From positions 1,008,263-1,072,262 of the forward strand of contig NZ_ACJN02000003.1 of assembly GCF_000174435.1 (NCBI RefSeq): a stretch of 64,000 bases of DNA, given 5' to 3'. Position 1 is the first letter of the stretch; each line of letters opens with the position of its first letter. The notes beneath the pieces are model-generated. The model was given only the letters and a program-made list of their open reading frames with translations, had not been told where the DNA came from and did no database searches. The translations under genes and the position numbers were made by a program. This DNA comes from Desulfonatronospira thiodismutans ASO3-1. GTDB lineage: Bacteria; Desulfobacterota; Desulfovibrionia; Desulfovibrionales; Desulfonatronovibrionaceae. Below, piece after piece: positions 2,611-56,862 of this stretch.

Positions 2611-2835
2611 CTATCAACCTCCTGGTTATCCGAACAGAAAAAACCGCAAACTCCTGCTTGCCATTTCACCTCAAAAATGTAAATCTGTGCCCATTAAAAA
2701 TATTTGTTGAATCCTTACAGCTTTTAGCATATTCTAAGAGCTAAAGGGGCCAGCTGATATTTTTATCGTATTTTTCTGCAATATTCTGCTAACTCTTGAG
2801 AAAAATTTAACAATAAACCCCCAAGGAGGACATCT
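2611..2835 (+). promoter_or_regulatory. Leader region of the selenoprotein gene, with strong ribosome binding site
   Basis: The AT-rich gap holds no ORF. AAGGAGG at 2823-2829 lies a good distance before ATG 2836 and fixes that start. A TTGAGA at about 2795 could be part of a promoter, but I cannot assign a convincing -10. Confidence 0.4.
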
Positions 2836-4161
2836 ATGGCAGATGCAGCTCTAAAATTGGGAGCAGAGCCCAAAGAAACCTTTCTGGACAAGGTTAGAGA
2901 CCTGTTGCCTGAACAGGGGCACTTAAACCTTTGTCTAACATGTGGAGCCTGCTCTTCCGGCTGCCCGGCCACCGGGCTGGAAGGAATGGATCCCAGGAAG
3001 TTCCTGCGCATGGCAGCCCTGGGCATGGATGAAGAAGTAACCTCCACCCCCTGGGTCTGGATGTGCACCATGTGCACCAGGTGTGTTCATGCATGTCCCA
3101 TGCAGATCAATATCCCCCAGCTTGTTTTCCAGGCCCGCAAAACCTGGCCCGAGGAAAAAAAGCCAAGGGGAATCGTGCAATCCTGTAAAGCGGCCATGAT
3201 CGACGATGCCACCAGTTCCATGGGAGCAACCTCAGAAGATTTCGTCGAGGCCGTGGAAGAAACCCTGGAGCAGGTCCGCAGTCAGCAGCGCGGATACAAG
3301 GACCTGCAGGTCACTTTTGACCGTAAGGGGGCCAAGTATTTTCTCAACCAGAACTCCCGCGAGCCCATGACAGAACCCGACGAAATGGTTCCCTTATGGA
3401 AAATCATGCACGAGGCAGGGGCAGACTGGACTTATGGCCGAGCCGGCTGGGCCGCGGAAAACTACTGTATGTTCGCAGCCAACGATGCTGAGTGGGAAAA
3501 AATTGTTCGCATAAAGGCCGAGGCCGTAGACGCCCTGGGCTGTGAATACTGGCTCAACACGGAGTGAGGGCATGAACTCTACGCAGTCCGGTTCGGACTG
3601 GAAAAGTTCAACATTCCTCACAAATTCAAAATCGAATCCATAATCCGGCTCTATGCCGACTGGGTCAGGGAAGGCAGGATCAAGCTTTCCTCGGACTGGA
3701 ACAAGGACCTCAAGATCAAGTTCACAGTACAGGACCCCTGCAACATGGTGCGCAAAACCTTCGGCGACTCCATTGCCGATGATATGCGTTACGTGCTCAA
3801 GGCCTGCGTGGGCGAAGAAAACTTCGTGGACACCTGGCCCAACAAATCCAACAACTTCTGCTGCGGCGGAGGCGGTGGATTCCTTCAAGCTGGTCTGAAG
3901 TCAGCCCGTCAGAGCTACGGCAAGGTCAAACACGACCAGATCATGGAAACCGGGGCTAAATATGTGATTACACCATGTCACAACTGCCACTCCCAGGTAC
4001 ACGACCTCTCCCACCACTTTGAAGGAGGCTACGAATGTGTTCACCTGTGGACAGTCATGGCCCTGTCCATGGGCATCCTCGGTCCTGATGAAAGGGCTTA
4101 CCTGGATGCCAGCCTGAGCGAATGCGGCATAAACGAATGTTCTCTGCCGCCAGACGAATAA
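2836..4161 (+). CDS. Selenocysteine-containing Fe-S oxidoreductase (HdrD/TmcB/DsrK-like, CCG domains)
   Basis: Read through an in-frame TGA at 3565-3567, this is one 441-residue protein. Two 4Fe-4S motifs come first (C33, C36, C39, C43 and C77, C80, C83, C87). They are followed by CCG-type cluster-binding segments: Sec244 in the motif ELNTE-U-GHE style position where relatives have ECGH, then C302, CC at 342-343 and CxxC at 381/384. Family members pass electrons between membrane carriers or soluble donors and thiol/disulfide or quinone partners in the cytosol. No membrane segment is visible and no Hdr or Dsr partner gene is adjacent. A bSECIS-like hairpin follows the TGA. The downstream part has no start with a ribosome binding site before codon 304, so a stop would leave an incomplete protein. 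Exact physiological partner unknown. Confidence 0.85.
3565..3600 (+). promoter_or_regulatory. Selenocysteine TGA codon with bSECIS hairpin
   Basis: The TGA is at 3565-3567. A hairpin follows: CAGTCC at 3584-3589 pairs perfectly with GGACTG at 3595-3600, with a further G-C pair and a small apical loop containing GUU. The loop begins about 23 bases after the TGA, within the spacing known for bacterial SECIS elements, and a G is among the first loop bases. Confidence 0.85.
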
Positions 4162-14021: not shown

Positions 14022-16486
14022 ATGTTAAATTTAGCACACCTCCCTGACGTTTCAGGTATGGAACAGGATATGATGTCTGCGGCTCTAGTTTATGCAGAGA
14101 CTGGCTTTCCGGTCTTCCCCTGCAGGAATAAGAAACCCATCACTGATCATGGTCACAAAGACGCCACCACGGATGAGGCCATTATAAGAAAGTGGTGGAC
14201 CCGCAACCCCGATGCGCAAATAGGAACGCCCACTGGACCTGCCAGCGGGGTCTGGGCGTTGGATGAAGATTTGCCGGATGGTCCTGATACCCTGGAGCAG
14301 CTAATAGATACCTACGGTCCTCTGCCGCCTACAAGAACACAGCAAACAGGCAGTGGTGGCAAGCAGTTCCTTTTTTCTTGGAATGGATGCCAAGTACGCA
14401 ACAGCACCAGCAAGATCGGACCGGATATAGATGTACGCGGGGACGGTGGATACATCATTCTACCGCCATCCGGGCACCCCTCTGGGGGTGTATATCAGTG
14501 GATCAACGAGCTAAGCCCGGCGGCTGCCCCGGACTGGTTATCTGAATTAGCCCTCAATCCAAGGAGGCCAAAAACCGCTCTCCAGGATACTAACGCTGCA
14601 ACATTCCAGGGTACAGCCTATGGTCGTGCTGCTCTGGAAAGAGAAGTGGAAAGAGTGTCAACTGCTTCAGAGGGTACGCGCAACGATACGCTGAACAAGG
14701 CCGCTTTTGCCTTAGGCCAGCTTGTAGCCGGTAATGGACTTTCAGAAAATGATGTCCTGACTGCTCTGTCAAATGCGGCTCTCGAAAACGGCCTTGAGCA
14801 CAGAGAGGTTGAAAAGACTATTCAAAGTGGCATTGAGGCAGGGAAACAGAACCCCAGAAGCATATCCAATGACGGATATGACAGAGGCAACAACCTACCG
14901 TCATCCAGGGAGTCCAGCACTGGTGCACTTCGTGACGGTAATGACGGTAATGACGGTATCACTGAGGATAGAACTACCCTTACCCTTCCCCCGCCTCCTC
15001 TGGATGTCTTTTATTATGACATCAGAAAGGCCATGGAGAACATAGCTGAGACCAAAAAGCCCCCTATCGAAGTATGCGTATCCGGCATCCTGGCTCTTGC
15101 CTCAGGTCTGGTAGGTAGATCCCGTGGAATAACCATCAAGGCCGGCTGGTCTGAAAGAGGCAATCTCTATATTGGCCTTGTGGGGAGATCCAGCTGTGGC
15201 AAATCCCCAGCCATCAATTCCATCTTCAAGCCAATCTATGAGAAGGAGAAGCGGTACCAGGAGCAGTATCAACGTGAGATGGAAGCTTATGAGCTTGCAC
15301 TCCAGGAATGGAGAAGCAGAAAAAAGGATGCTCCTCCTGAGCCCAAGCCTGAGCCCCCTGTCAGGATAGACTTGGTCCTTGATGACTGGACCATAGAAGC
15401 TGCAGCGGACAGCTTGTCGGCAAACCCAAGAGGTGTACTTCTATACCGGGACGAACTTGCAGGCATGCTCATGGACCTTGAAAATACTCAGGAGAAAAGG
15501 GTGCCACGAAAACCAGGCTTATGACTGCTTATGATGGCAGCAAGCCGTGGAAAATTAGCAGAGCAACCTCGGACCGCAGCAACTTCATCCCAGAACCGTG
15601 TGTCAGCCTTTATGGAGGAATTCAGCCAGCCATCGCCAAAGACCTGTTTAACAATAAAGACATCGACAGCGGCTTCCTTGGCCGGTTTATGTTCATTCAG
15701 GCTATCCAGAGGGTGCCGGCAACTTTTTCAGAAGAAGAAGAATCTATGGCCACCCAGGAAACTCTTAAGAAGCTTGTAAATGGGCTGGACTCCTTTAGCT
15801 TCCATGAAACTACTCAATACATTCAGGTCAGTGCTGAAGCCAAGCAGACGTTCATAAGCTGGCATGACAAGCTGGCTTACGAAGCATGGTTCGCTGAAAA
15901 CGATGGAGAGGGCAGTCTGCTGAACAAGATAAGAGCACAAGGATTAAGAGTATGCTTGATCCTGCACTGCATTGATGCAGTTATGAACGAGCAAGACGAA
16001 ATGATGAAGATCAGCAATGATACCATGGTTAAGGCCTTGAAGCTGATGGACTGGATAAGAACACACACCCAGGCTACATGGAAGATGCTGATGGATAAAG
16101 CAGCAACTCCTTCAGGGCAGGACGTACGTGTTGCACAGGCCATTTTTGCCCTGGAAGGGGAGATTACAAACTCCTGGCTGCCTACTGGCCGTATAACCGA
16201 ATTGGTCAATGACGGATTAGACCACAGGTACCATTTAACTGCGGAACAGGTGGGAAGAGCATGCAAAGGGTTGCAGCTTGAAAACAAAGCCAAGTCTCAT
16301 GCCAGGGGCTTTATAATCACCCCAGAGGACATCAAGAGGCTTAGCTCCTTTGTTCCTGAAAAAGAACCGTCATATCTGTCATATGTGTCAGAACCTAGTA
16401 TTGACGGGGCTTATGAGTATGACACTTCGGAGAGTGCACCGTCATACCCGTCATGCCATGAAGATGATGAGGGGGTGCCGATCTGA
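14022..16486 (+). pseudogene. Prim-Pol/DUF3987 replication protein, split by a -1 frameshift
   Basis: Frame 1 (14022-15524) holds an N-terminal bifunctional primase/polymerase domain: YAETGFPVFPCRNKKPI, the catalytic LDED, and DVRGDGGYIILPPSGH. It goes on into a DUF3987 domain with P-loop GRSSCGKS near residue 395 and the conserved DELAG. After DLENTQE (about 15494) the reading must shift by -1 to give KGATKTRLMTAYDGSKPW and the rest of DUF3987 to 16486. Joined, about 820 residues make a complete family member, probably the island's replication initiator/primase. The shift lies at GGAGAAAAGGG. It may be a mutation, a sequencing error or, less likely, programmed slippage. ATG 14022 has AGGAGG upstream. 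Confidence 0.82.
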
Positions 16487-50686: not shown

Positions 50687-51350
50687 TCAAAGACTGAGTC
50701 CGATGCAAACCATCAGGCCCTGCAGGAAAAAGGCGTTGATCGCATAGCACCTCCCACCGGAAAGCCGCCTGAAGGCTTTGGAGTCATGGACTTTGAACTT
50801 CAGGAAAATGGACAATCCATTCATGCCTGCCCCATGGGACAGGCCTGTCTTGAAAACAAAATCAATCAAAAAAACCAAAAGACGGCTTCATACTTTGACC
50901 CCGAACAATGTCGAGCATGCCCGCATTCCAAGGACTGTCCAATAAAAATCACCAAGCGCAAGGCAAAGGTGGAATGGCAATGGAGCAAACCTCGCGTTGG
51001 AAGCCAGAAGACATGCCTTTCAAGAAGATCAGAAACTAATCAATCTTTTCAAACAAAGGGCCGGAGGTGAAGCCGGCTTTTCCCAGCTCAAGGTTCATCA
51101 TGGCCTGAGAAGATTGCGATGCCTGGGATCCGTGAAATCAAAGTTTAAAATTATCATGGCGGTCACGGCCTTAAACATCAAAAGAACTTTCAACTGGATG
51201 AAGGGCGGCAGTAGTGGGCCCAGAACTCGAAAAAATAAAGATTTTGAACCGGATACAGGCATACTTTTGTTTTTTATATGGCTTTTCTGTTCATATCTTC
51301 GCAAAACTTTGATCGCCTCGGGCCTGCGCCCGAAAATTTTCAGCTGATCA
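50687..51350 (+). pseudogene. IS1182-like transposase relic
   Basis: Two reading frames together give the C-terminal half of a DDE transposase: a cysteine-rich part (CPMGQACLENK, DPEQCRACPHSKDCPIK) and then, after a frameshift, LINLFKQRAGGEAGFSQLKVHHGLRRLRCLG and a helix with KIIMAVTALNIKRTF. This arrangement is found in IS1182-type transposases. The catalytic N-terminal half is missing and at least one frameshift is present near 51000. It lies just after pat, probably an old insertion. Confidence 0.72.
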
Positions 51351-51616: not shown

Positions 51617-53284
51617 TTATCCATCGCTTGTATCCGGCAGAAGCAGGGCAACCCTGGTCCCCTTGCCTTCCATGGAATCAATTTCGATTTCGCCGCCGTG
51701 ATCCTGGACAATCCTGTGCACTATGGCCAGCCCCAGCCCGCTGCCCTTTTCCCGGGCGGAAAAAAATGGCTCCAGAGCCTTTTCCCGGGTGGCGGCGTCC
51801 ATACCGCAACCCCGGTCCTGTACCTCAATGCGTACCCGGTCCTTTTCCCGGGTGGCCCTAAGACTTATCTCCCCGCCCTGCCTGGAAGCCTGCAGGCTGT
51901 TCAGCACCAGGTTCAAAACCGCCTGCTTGATAAGATCCCTGTCAGCCTTTACTTCTACTTCACCCGGCTCAAGAATTAGCTGAACACTTCCGGATCTCAG
52001 GTCCATTTCCAGTAGCGTCCGAACCTCCTGAAAAAGATCTGCCAGGTTCAACTCTACCCTTTGCAGGGACCTGGGCCGGGCCAGGTACATAAGATCATTT
52101 ATCACCCGGTTCAGGCGGTCCGCCTCGGACACCATGGTCCGGGCATACTCGGATGCAGGTTCCTCTCCGGAAAATTTCTGCTGAAAATACTGGGCAAAGC
52201 CCTTAAGCGAGCTCAAGGGATTGCGTATCTCGTGAGCCAGCCCGGCTGCAAACCGCCCCACCGCGGCCAGACGCCTGGAATGCTCCAGACTGCTTTCCAG
52301 TTCGCGCATACGGGTCCTGTCCCGGAGCAGAACCAGAAAATCCTCTTCCTCCCCAATGGGCAGTATCAGCACCTCTATGCTCCTGTTCCCCATCTCCAGC
52401 TCATGCCAGCCTGATCTTTGCTCCAGGTCGATTTCCAGGGGCAGGACCTCGCTCAGGCTGCTGCCTACAATATTTCTATTCTGGTCCAGAAGTTCCTGGG
52501 CGGCTGGATTAGCTGCGGTGATCTCCATCCGGGAATTTACGCTTATAAGTCCGTCCGGCATGTTGTCCAACAGCCTGGAATGAAAGCTGCTCAGGCGTAC
52601 AAACTGTCTGCCCTGCTCCTTTTTTCGCACATACCCCCAGGCCAGCAGTCCAATTATGAACAAAGCAGTAAAGGTAAAAACGGCCTGAACTGATATGGTT
52701 CTTTTGTATCCGCTGTAGGCCTCCAGGTGCCCGGACATATCCAAGGCGATAAAAAGGCTCCCATAACCATTGCCCGGATCATTTTCCTGAAGCATCCGGC
52801 CTCTCATATGCCCCATTCGCCTGGAGGGAAAGCCCTGAACAAAAACCTGCTGTCCGTCAAGCACCAGTTCAGCATTCCATACCTCCCTGGATGCCTTCTC
52901 AAGCATCTCCGGCCCGGGCCTGAAATCCACCGGCAGGATATCGCGGCTGGCATAAAATTCCTCCCCTTCCGGTCCATAAAGGCCCAGAAAAACCACATCC
53001 CCGTCCTGCATCAGTTCTTTTAAAAGATCCTCTGCAGCGGGAATAAAGTCCTGTTCGTCGGCCCACCTCCGGCCGCCCATCCCGCGCATTGCTCCCCGGT
53101 ACAGATTGGCCTCTATACCGCGACCGATGGACTGGGCACTCAGGGCCATGTGCTCCCGGACCTGTTCCTGCTGCTGGCGCAGGTTCTGCCAGGTAAGAAA
53201 AAACAGCCCAGCACCGAGCAAAACAAAAATAAGCCCGAAAACCAGGGCTGTGCTGACCTCTTTGCGGTCCAGACGTATATCCAC
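51617..53284 (-). CDS. Membrane-bound sensor histidine kinase
   Basis: The 555-residue protein has two membrane segments (about 13-33 and 198-218) around a periplasmic sensor part, then a PAS domain (about 232-330), a HisKA domain with the phosphorylated H351 (GLAHEIRNPLSSLKGF), and a HATPase domain with NLVLNSLQAS, DRGCGMD and EKGSGLGLAIVHRIV. It resembles ZraS/AtoS-like kinases that activate NtrC-type regulators. No response regulator lies beside it, so its partner is elsewhere. The Met/Gly/Arg-rich stretch GAMRGMGGRRW in the sensor part is of note. Confidence 0.9.
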   Translation of the reverse strand: MDIRLDRKEVSTALVFGLIFVLLGAGLFFLTWQNLRQQQEQVREHMALSAQSIGRGIEANLYRGAMRGMGGRRWADEQDFIPAAEDLLKELMQDGDVVFLGLYGPEGEEFYASRDILPVDFRPGPEMLEKASREVWNAELVLDGQQVFVQGFPSRRMGHMRGRMLQENDPGNGYGSLFIALDMSGHLEAYSGYKRTISVQAVFTFTALFIIGLLAWGYVRKKEQGRQFVRLSSFHSRLLDNMPDGLISVNSRMEITAANPAAQELLDQNRNIVGSSLSEVLPLEIDLEQRSGWHELEMGNRSIEVLILPIGEEEDFLVLLRDRTRMRELESSLEHSRRLAAVGRFAAGLAHEIRNPLSSLKGFAQYFQQKFSGEEPASEYARTMVSEADRLNRVINDLMYLARPRSLQRVELNLADLFQEVRTLLEMDLRSGSVQLILEPGEVEVKADRDLIKQAVLNLVLNSLQASRQGGEISLRATREKDRVRIEVQDRGCGMDAATREKALEPFFSAREKGSGLGLAIVHRIVQDHGGEIEIDSMEGKGTRVALLLPDTSDG

Positions 53285-53403: not shown

Positions 53404-53955
53404 TTACAGCTGGGACTCCTGCACAATCTTCAGGATGGATTCAACACCAGGTCTGTCTGCGGGTGTTTTGCCGATGTAATGCAGGCGGACGGTTCCGCCG
53501 GGATCAATGAGTACGTCTCCGCCCCGCTGGGATACGTCCCCGGTGGACTTTCTGGGCAATCTGCCCCGCAGGGCCTCCTTGAGGTAAAGCCACAGGGTTG
53601 CCGGCCCTATGAGCTCGCGGATACCGGCACTGAGCATTCCATAACCATGGTAAAGGGCACGGTCCTCGTCCACAAGAAGCGGCCACTTGAGGCCTGTGTC
53701 CTCCACATAGGCCCTGGCCATAAACCCGGCTTCAAAGGTGACCACCGCTGTCTTGACCCCGAGATCATCAAGGAACTGTTCCTTCTCCTGCAACTGCTGG
53801 AGATGCTTCTGGCAGGCCAGTCAGGCCAGGTGGCGATGAAACACCAGAAGCACCCAGCTCCCCAGATATTCCTGCATACTGTGCTGCCGGCCCTGGCTGT
53901 CTTTAAGAGTAAAATCCAGAGCCGGCTTTCCAGTTAGATCCCTGGAACCTGTCAT
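53404..53955 (-). CDS. Selenocysteine-containing AhpC/TSA-family thioredoxin-fold protein
   Basis: Read through an in-frame TGA at 53821-53823, this is a 183-residue AhpC/TSA-type protein. The active site is Sec45-L-A-Cys48, a U-x-x-C motif just after VLLVFHRHLA, where relatives have C-x-x-C. The rest (AVVTFEAGF, WPLLVDEDRALYHGYGM, VLIDPGGTVRLHYIG) matches peroxiredoxin-like proteins. Such proteins reduce peroxides or disulfides in the cytosol. A bSECIS-like hairpin follows the TGA. Stopping at the TGA would leave 44 residues, and the ORF below it begins only at a poor TTG, after the motif. ATG 53955 has no strong ribosome binding site. Confidence 0.85.
53784..53823 (-). promoter_or_regulatory. 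Selenocysteine TGA codon with bSECIS hairpin (second)
   Basis: On the minus strand, 17 bases after the TGA, TCTCC-A-GC pairs with GC-A-GGAGA around the loop AGTT (53784-53803). The loop starts 25 bases after the TGA and contains GUU, like the first SECIS at 3565-3600. Confidence 0.78.
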
Positions 53956-54033
53956 AATATTTTTCTTATCCCCTGTTCAGCCAGTTGCATCTAAAGTTTC
54001 CTGAACATCTACTGATCTCTGCTCTCTGATTTA

Positions 54034-54205
54034 GAATCCCCGAATCCCTCAATCCTTCAATCCCAGAATCCCTAAATCCCCCCTTTCTTCTCCACGCCCC
54101 ACGCCCTCTTCCCCATGCCCCATGCCCCATGCCCTATGCCCCAATTCCCCAATTCCCCAATCCCCCAATCCCTTAATCCCCAAATTCCAGAATCCAGAAT
54201 CCTAC
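54034..54205. repeat. Low-complexity CCCCATG / CCCCAATT repeat tract
   Basis: Runs of CCCTAAAT, CCTCAAT and CCCCAATT units surround a central block of CCCCATG heptamers (about 54110-54142). The tract stretches over 170 bases and ends inside the last codons of the octaheme gene. Same family as 316-392, 2165-2238 and 60637-60886. Confidence 0.8.
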
Positions 54206-56862
54206 CGATTCCTGGTCCCGGACAGCATATTGGGATGGTGGGCTTCGTAGTCCATCTCCATGGTATGGCACACCGAACAGTTGTTATTGGCTCCGATGGC
54301 GTAGGGTTCGCCCTGATACTGCAGCGGCTGCACATTGTCCCTGTCCTGGCCGAACTTGTTTTCAGCCGGATATTCAGCATGGGTGGCCCCGTGGCAGGAC
54401 TGGCACATAAGCCCCATATAATCCGTGCGCATGCGGTACAGCTCGTCAACCTCCTCGTTCCAGACATTAAAGGCCGATACCTGGTCACTTTCAGGCTGCT
54501 GAAAATCCTGGTGACAGGTCAGGCAGTCCGGCTGCTGCTCCCAGGGGATCCTGGGGTTTATCTCTTCGGTGGAATCCACCAGCCTTGGCTCAATAAGGCT
54601 CATATGCCGCGAGGCTTGCTTGGTCTTGCCGGCTTCGTACTCGCCTTTTAAAAGGGTCAGGGCATGATCCTCCAGGGTACCGTGACAGGAGGTGCAGTCC
54701 AGATCCACCCTGGTGGCGTGCACCCCGCGTTTGCAGTCCGTGTAGAGATCCGGGTCGCTTGGATGGCATGCATTGCAGGCCTCCGCCCCTTCCCGGTCCG
54801 AGAGGTAATGAACGTGAAATCCATGCAGGGCCGCGGGCAGGTTTAAAATATCCGGATCCCCGGGTGCGTTTAAAAGCGGATCAGCGTGACAGCTCTGGCA
54901 GAGTACCGGTTCTCCGGCTTCAGCCCTGGGCATGAGACTGGTATCATGTCTTCTGTCGTGGTTTTTTAATACGTCCGAGGCGGTCTCTGCGGCAATGCCC
55001 ATTTTGCCGTCTACTCTCCAATCTCCGCCATGACAGTTGTTGCAGCCCATTTCCGCGGATACCGGAGCCACCACCTTGGTCTCGGCCAGCAGCTCCCCGC
55101 TGTCCTTGTCCCTGGCCTCTATGTAAAAGAATGGATACGGGTTTATGCTCCCGTCGTCGCTGTATGGCACCACTGGTATGCCGTCAGCCACAAAGGTCCA
55201 CAGATCCTCGTTGAGGGTCATCTCCCCCTGCATGCCCAGGCCCTTGGCGCTTATATTCTCGGGCAGTTCCCTGCCGGCCAGAGACTGAGAGTTGTCCCAG
55301 TAGCTCACGTGGTTTGCCGGGTTCTCAAAGCCCTCCTCCGGACGGAAAGTAAGCTCCACCCCTTGAGTGACAATCTCGGGCATAAAATCCCGGCGCACCA
55401 GCTGGGCGAAGATGGTGTTGCCCGGGGGCAGCATGGACCAGTAGTCGTCGCAGTCGGTAATACATTTAAGCCCCAGGGTATTCCAGGCCATGAGGACGTA
55501 TTCGTCCTCATCGGGATCAAAAGGCGGGATGTCAAAGTCAAACTCGGGGACATCCACGGTTCTTGGCTTTTCCGGCTCTTTTCCCTGGATCTCCTGGACA
55601 ATGAAGGCCGCCAGGGCCTGGCGCTCCTCCCGGGTACCCATGAATCTGGGCATATAGTCATATACATGGCCCATGCCGTCCAGCATGGAGTCCATGCCGA
55701 ACTGGCCGAATTTCTCAGTCACCGGGATGATATCGTTCATGAACCCGCCCCGGGAATGACAGGCTGAGCACTGGATATTGTACAGATCGCGCCCGGCTTC
55801 TAACTTGTTCTCGCTTGTGACCTGGTCATGCTCGGTCCACCTGGCCATCTTGAGCATGCCCTTTTCGTTTATTTCCTGCTCCATTTCCACCGGGATGGAA
55901 CTGGAATACATGTGCTCATAAATGACGTGGGGGCGTCTTCCGGCCTCGCGGATCCACTCGAAGCTGCCCATATACAGAAGGCCGATCATGAGAAATATGA
56001 TAGTTATCGGCCTCTTGATGCTGCCTGGCATGCGGATGGAGATAATCAGCCCGCCGATGACGATAACCACCGAGAGCCAGATAAAGGCCTGGAAAAAAGG
56101 CACAATCTCCGGGGAGCGGCCCAGGATCATGGCCTGTGCCCCCTCGGGAACAGACTGCAGGTACCAGTAGCCGCTGATGAGCATGAATACAAAGGGTGCC
56201 AGCAGCCATTTGGCGCAGTAGCGGATCATCTGCTCGCGCAGGTCCGCATCCCTGATCCAGGATGCGGTGACAAAACCGTAAAGACCGGCCAGCATAAGCG
56301 CAATAAATGTCCTGAAGAACAGGGCCGGCCAGAAAGTGGGATTGAAGAATGCGTGCCAGACATTACCTGTTTCCAGCCACTGCCCCGGAGAAAGCATGAA
56401 GGCAATAATCCCGTTTATAACAAAAAGAGACAGCCAGGCGAATATAAAGTACAGCCAGCCCATGAGCAGGTGTTTTCTGCGCTCCATGGAGCCGAATGTA
56501 TAATAGTAGACGAATATGGCGATAATCTCGGCCATGAAAAAGACCCATTCAATGGCCCAGAAATAGACAAAGGTATGTATGAGCATGGACGTGGCCCCCG
56601 GGCTTACCAGAGAAATGGCGAACCAGATGCCTACACCGGTTACCGCTCCGAAGACCAGGGTCAAGAGCATGAAAAACTTGGCGTGCTTCTTGGTATATTC
56701 CAGGATGCCGGGATTGTTTTCCCGGTAACCCTTCATTTCCGTGAGAACCAGAAACAGCCCGCCGCCGATGGCGAAATGGGCCACAAACACGTGCACAATG
56801 GCGATAGTTGCAATCCAGAACCCTCCGCTGAAGGTAAACAGTTCCCACACCGGATAATTCAT
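54202..56862 (-). CDS. Cytochrome bd-like membrane subunit fused to an eight-haem c-type cytochrome
   Basis: The 886-residue protein has about eight membrane helices in the first 320 residues, like the CydA subunit of cytochrome bd (FSGGFWIATIAIVHVFVAHFAIGGG). A large extracytoplasmic part follows with eight CxxCH motifs: CSACH, CNNCH, CQSCH, CNACH, CTSCH, CLTCH, CQSCH and CSVCH. Each should bind haem c. The cytochrome bd superfamily has c-haem-bearing branches whose reaction differs from quinol:oxygen reduction. The electron route, quinol pool to periplasm or the reverse, is inferred. It directly follows its partner gene (TAA-ATG junction). An unusually large multihaem fusion. Confidence 0.85.
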   Translation of the reverse strand: MNYPVWELFTFSGGFWIATIAIVHVFVAHFAIGGGLFLVLTEMKGYRENNPGILEYTKKHAKFFMLLTLVFGAVTGVGIWFAISLVSPGATSMLIHTFVYFWAIEWVFFMAEIIAIFVYYYTFGSMERRKHLLMGWLYFIFAWLSLFVINGIIAFMLSPGQWLETGNVWHAFFNPTFWPALFFRTFIALMLAGLYGFVTASWIRDADLREQMIRYCAKWLLAPFVFMLISGYWYLQSVPEGAQAMILGRSPEIVPFFQAFIWLSVVIVIGGLIISIRMPGSIKRPITIIFLMIGLLYMGSFEWIREAGRRPHVIYEHMYSSSIPVEMEQEINEKGMLKMARWTEHDQVTSENKLEAGRDLYNIQCSACHSRGGFMNDIIPVTEKFGQFGMDSMLDGMGHVYDYMPRFMGTREERQALAAFIVQEIQGKEPEKPRTVDVPEFDFDIPPFDPDEDEYVLMAWNTLGLKCITDCDDYWSMLPPGNTIFAQLVRRDFMPEIVTQGVELTFRPEEGFENPANHVSYWDNSQSLAGRELPENISAKGLGMQGEMTLNEDLWTFVADGIPVVPYSDDGSINPYPFFYIEARDKDSGELLAETKVVAPVSAEMGCNNCHGGDWRVDGKMGIAAETASDVLKNHDRRHDTSLMPRAEAGEPVLCQSCHADPLLNAPGDPDILNLPAALHGFHVHYLSDREGAEACNACHPSDPDLYTDCKRGVHATRVDLDCTSCHGTLEDHALTLLKGEYEAGKTKQASRHMSLIEPRLVDSTEEINPRIPWEQQPDCLTCHQDFQQPESDQVSAFNVWNEEVDELYRMRTDYMGLMCQSCHGATHAEYPAENKFGQDRDNVQPLQYQGEPYAIGANNNCSVCHTMEMDYEAHHPNMLSGTRNR

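Follow-up and report, generated by a model that had tools for sequence, protein, structure and literature searches.

The 64-kb window analyzed here (the whole 64,000-nucleotide stretch from Desulfonatronospira thiodismutans ASO3-1) almost certainly encodes a selenocysteine (Sec)-containing SelL-related, peroxiredoxin-like redox protein of 183 amino acids. In this soda-lake type sulfur bacterium, one UGA "stop" codon is predicted to be decoded as selenocysteine in a small redox protein. The initial annotation had proposed such a reading of the in-frame TGA at 53821-53823, and the reading frame, the motif, conservation, hairpin covariation, and the Sec machinery of the genome all agree with it. 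The features concerned are the following:

53404..53955, minus strand: SelL-related redox selenoprotein gene, 183 amino acids, motif U45-L-A-C48 (translation, NF040769, AhpC-TSA, conservation)
53821..53823, minus strand: in-frame UGA (Sec45), shared by all 12 subfamily loci in this alignment column; the CxxC sister clade has Cys there
53785..53802, minus strand: bacterial-type SECIS hairpin, seven-pair stem with AGUU apical loop (covariation; invariant TTG Leu codon)
51617..53284, minus strand: PAS-HisKA-HATPase sensor kinase, directly downstream of the selenoprotein gene (Pfam)
54202..56862, minus strand: cytochrome bd-subunit-I-like protein fused to a multihaem c-type cytochrome, the upstream gene (positional neighbour only)
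2827-4158, plus strand: HmcF/TmcB/DsrK-like Fe-S oxidoreductase, a separate gene of 444 amino acids with UGA 3565..3567 and the motif NTEUGHE

On the minus strand, the frame opens with an ATG at 53955 and closes with TAA 53406-53404, and TGA 53823-53821 is its sole interruption. Reading this TGA as Sec yields 183 residues (...FHRHLA-U-LAC-QKHL...), among which Cys48 is the single cysteine. Without readthrough (table 11), the remaining ORF comprises 129 amino acids from TTG 53793, a codon that overlaps the hairpin loop and the 3' arm of its stem; the standard ORF had indeed been annotated as beginning at a TTG. The extension adds 54 residues to this ORF and not 55 as initially counted, while the ATG and the 44 residues preceding U were given correctly. 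A scan of the window scored each in-frame TGA preceded by at least 15 codons and followed by at least 10 for coding character on both sides, and TGA 53823-53821 ranked first.

The UGA is found at the same column in all 12 subfamily loci, which share 51 to 92% identity with the window protein, retain the UxxC motif, and without exception read U-L-[PA]-C. Beyond the genome analyzed here, three Desulfonatronospira genomes contain the gene with the same UGA, as do seven genomes from other families in the phylum and one Myxococcota-labelled record. The gene was not found in two other Desulfonatronospira genomes, and the match in a third was weak and partial; it may be dispensable, or it may have been missed in incomplete assemblies. 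A search of plasmids returned no relative. Close relatives without the upstream 44 residues, which the initial annotation had named as a finding that would speak against it, were not encountered: every close relative found carries the upstream half together with the UGA. Thus, conservation of the upstream half excludes the TTG start. Within the genus, comparison with L019 gave dN/dS values of 0.064/0.38 before the UGA and 0.036/0.29 after it, and comparison with L018 gave 0.155/0.85 and 0.162/1.25, respectively. Both sides of the in-frame UGA are conserved as coding sequence and are under purifying selection, and because dN is well below dS on either side, a dead gene is excluded. These data bear directly on the possibility that the TGA is a true stop, marking a pseudogene or a disrupted frame from which only the short protein starting at TTG 53793 is made. 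Although standard-code ORF calling yields exactly the 129-amino acid ORF and the hairpin energy is unremarkable, this explanation is highly improbable: different genera and probably phyla all have this TGA, selection acts on both of its sides, the short product would be devoid of the active site, and the genome contains Sec machinery.

The selenoprotein reading is further supported by a CxxC sister clade. In the proposed alignment with C-x-x-C and U-x-x-C relatives, the motifs were in register, and the U45 column is occupied by Cys in this clade, which has support of 99/99 (L057, L060, L064, and L066-L069). A more distant UPFC clade of five loci (L022-L026), from another family of the same order and encoding about 150 amino acids, also carries a UGA; it shares the GC-AGUU-GC core of the hairpin, with compensatory changes in the stem. 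A separate UxxA/S clade (L021, L058, L059, L061-L063, and L070) reads R-H-F-G-U-[MIV]-F-[AS]. Here Ala or Ser stands in for the resolving Cys whereas Sec is retained, which suggests a 1-Sec mechanism.

The hairpin begins 18 bases after the UGA, and its arms span 53802-53796 and 53791-53785. Its AGUU loop (53795-53792) starts exactly 25 nt downstream of the UGA, where it had originally been placed. The stem contains one A-A mismatch in this species, which is absent from most relatives. The folding energy of the single sequence was not better than that of shuffles (z -0.5 to -0.7), and therefore energy alone lends no support to the hairpin as first annotated. The case for the predicted element comes instead from comparative data. 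In a gap-free alignment of sixteen distinct sequences, 92% of the cells of the seven-pair stem around [AG]GUU were paired versus 72.5% in shuffles, and two-sided changes affected 18 cells versus 6.4. The stem covariation score was 0.417 as compared to 0.106 in shuffles, none of the 500 shuffles scored as high, and slid versions of the stem reached at most 0.167, all these covariation figures being inflated by the relatedness of the sequences. Four of the seven pairs showed changes on both sides, as exemplified by columns 25-36 (A-U, C-G, U-G, G-C, G-U, and U-A). In all 17 genes, Leu at the loop is encoded by TTG, a codon that these genes mostly use for only a minority of their Leu residues. 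An Rfam scan at gathering level returned two tRNAs and no SECIS family. The AGUU loop 25 nt after the UGA and the compensatory changes around it mark a SECIS element, whose geometry fits the bacterial form described as a small apical loop with a G close behind the UGA (PMC1088965). A covariance model of the hairpin (R1) also matched position 14758 on the plus strand (E 1.5e-4); this was taken to be a chance match, as the TGA is out of frame within a long ORF and the apical portion of the stem-loop is lacking.

The genome (4.1 Mb in 5 contigs) contains selA, selB, selC, and selD, with tRNA-Sec detected at 81 bits, SelB at 377 bits, SelA at 606 bits, and SelD at 397 bits, the gene of the last having a single in-frame TGA. 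Lack of Sec machinery had been named as a finding that would overturn the annotation, and the proposed active selenocysteine system is supported by tRNA-Sec, SelA, SelB, and the UGA-containing SelD. In carrying an in-frame TGA, the SelD gene (L072, G000:C2:173669-174595) resembles those of other selenophosphate synthetases that contain Sec. Which residue is inserted does not follow from an open frame by itself, and Cys stands at the UGA position in the sister clade, so one may ask whether suppression or a variant code places another amino acid there, either Trp or Cys. We regard this as very hard to credit in view of the complete Sec system and of the covarying SECIS-like hairpin after the UGA, which suppression would not need.

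Besides the SelL-related gene, the window holds the Fe-S oxidoreductase gene with UGA 3565, directly after which lies a hairpin with a folding-energy z of -2.2. The motif NTEUGHE agrees with the UGH "Fe-S oxidoreductase-like" selenoprotein family listed in a review (PMC13188914), and this gene is a plausible selenoprotein as well. The covariance model R1 gave no match at the UGA 3565 site, and by this model the two hairpins of the window are not recognisably related. Thus, the original view that the window contains two Sec genes with similar SECIS loops holds as to the genes, while the argument from loop similarity is weak.

As to the family of the 183-residue protein, residues 10-177 matched positions 1-172 of the 173-position NF040769 model ("SelL-related redox protein") at 169.4 bits, above the curated cut-off of 120 bits. 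The match spans the whole length of the model, with the Sec/Cys column and the R-x-x-x-[U/C]-x-x-C motif in register, and U45-L-A-C48 aligns with the CxxC and UxxC members. The window protein reads A-U-L-A-C in place of the commoner G-U-L-P-C and otherwise shows no difference of substance. The model is named after eukaryotic selenoprotein L (SelL), a Prx-like protein whose redox motif contains Sec. Eukaryotic SelL carries UxxU, in contrast to the UxxC of the window protein, and has its SECIS in the 3' UTR, whereas bacterial genes have it within the coding sequence. A search of the literature for bacterial SelL homologues yielded nothing specific. "Prx-like thiol:disulfide oxidoreductase" selenoproteins have been reported from several Deltaproteobacteria (PMC1794560), and UxxC and UxxU forms are listed in a 2026 review (PMC13188914). 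The window protein resembles these deltaproteobacterial UxxC proteins, as they are described, in its AhpC/TSA fold, its motif, and its host; the family in the literature is broad.

The top Pfam family was AhpC-TSA (67 bits). An AlphaFold2 model built with seven sequences (pLDDT 82.5) has a peroxiredoxin fold according to Foldseek, with Bcp4 and AhpC peroxiredoxins as top matches (TMq about 0.7). In this model, helix 46-57 begins directly after residue 45, which is thereby predicted to lie at the N terminus of the active-site helix, the classical nucleophile position. The Thr/Ser found three residues before the peroxidatic residue of classical peroxiredoxins (PxxxTxxC/TxxU) is absent; His42 takes this place, and the FHRHLA stretch before U45 contains no Thr or Ser at all. 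Of the initial description as an AhpC/TSA-like protein with U-x-x-C at the peroxiredoxin active-site place, the motif, fold, and place are thus retained, but the protein is not a classical AhpC/TSA peroxiredoxin because it lacks this Thr/Ser. It belongs to the SelL-related/Prx-like UxxC group. The best match by sequence in the PDB was human prostamide/prostaglandin F synthase (PRXL2B; PDB 9us9/9usa; E 6.7e-6), with ResA also among the best. PRXL2B has a similar fold, and its paired cysteines are residues 44 and 47 (title of 9usa); it is an animal enzyme with Cys in both positions of the pair, and a shared substrate is unlikely.

The protein, with its Sec-Cys pair, likely acts as a thiol/selenol oxidoreductase or a peroxidase. 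Sec insertion in vivo, the substrate, the reductant, and the catalytic cycle are what we infer from homology only, as follows. Ribosomes would start at ATG 53955, and the SelB-GTP-Sec-tRNA complex would bind the hairpin with its AGUU loop 25 nt downstream and insert Sec at UGA 53823. The product would adopt the fold of thioredoxins and peroxiredoxins and place Sec45 at the N terminus of the active-site helix, where this residue would act as the nucleophile, most likely attacking a peroxide or a disulfide substrate. Oxidized Sec45 would then form a selenenylsulfide with the resolving Cys48, with thioredoxin or a different thiol donor serving as its reductant. Within Sec decoding, a thiol:disulfide oxidoreductase (disulfide reductase/isomerase-like) and not a peroxidase has, in our estimate, somewhat less than an even chance. 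Sec-Prx has been listed with TxxU and Prx-like proteins with UxxC (PMC1088965), and the UxxC motif, in place of the TxxU/TxxC of true peroxiredoxins, speaks for an oxidoreductase, as do ResA and prostamide synthase among the best PDB sequence matches. Against it stand Pfam AhpC-TSA as the top family and peroxiredoxins as the best fold matches, although fold alone is not decisive. The fold favours a peroxiredoxin, whereas UxxC and the missing Thr/Ser favour thiol:disulfide exchange.

The sensor kinase also follows the gene in the Desulfonatronospira loci L048 and L074. In other genera the neighbours differ, and inspection of the neighbourhoods revealed no conserved partner. As a PAS-type membrane sensor kinase immediately follows the gene in the genus, the Sec-Cys protein could serve as a peroxide/redox sensor or switch for the two-component system of this kinase and not as a bulk antioxidant, a role we consider improbable. 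L074 has a second, response-regulator-like gene at the place corresponding to window 50786-51347; this plus-strand segment, downstream of the sensor kinase, holds what we take by resemblance to be transposase-like fragments. A response-regulator-like partner may once have stood in the window and since been lost or displaced. Upstream, a stretch of about 250 bp that contains short degenerate repeats separates the selenoprotein gene from the cytochrome gene; at 54007-54202 it holds clustered degenerate tandem repeats of 7, 8, 16, and 21 bp (CCCCAATC, CCATGCC, and similar).

Together, these data correct the annotation of a gene that standard gene calling would cut short at the UGA, with loss of the active site, and add a covariation-supported SECIS element to a catalogued family. 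The selenoprotein is a genuine yet ordinary member of that family, with no hint of a new mechanism. It is a further redox selenoprotein from the Deltaproteobacteria, a group in which many such proteins were known before.
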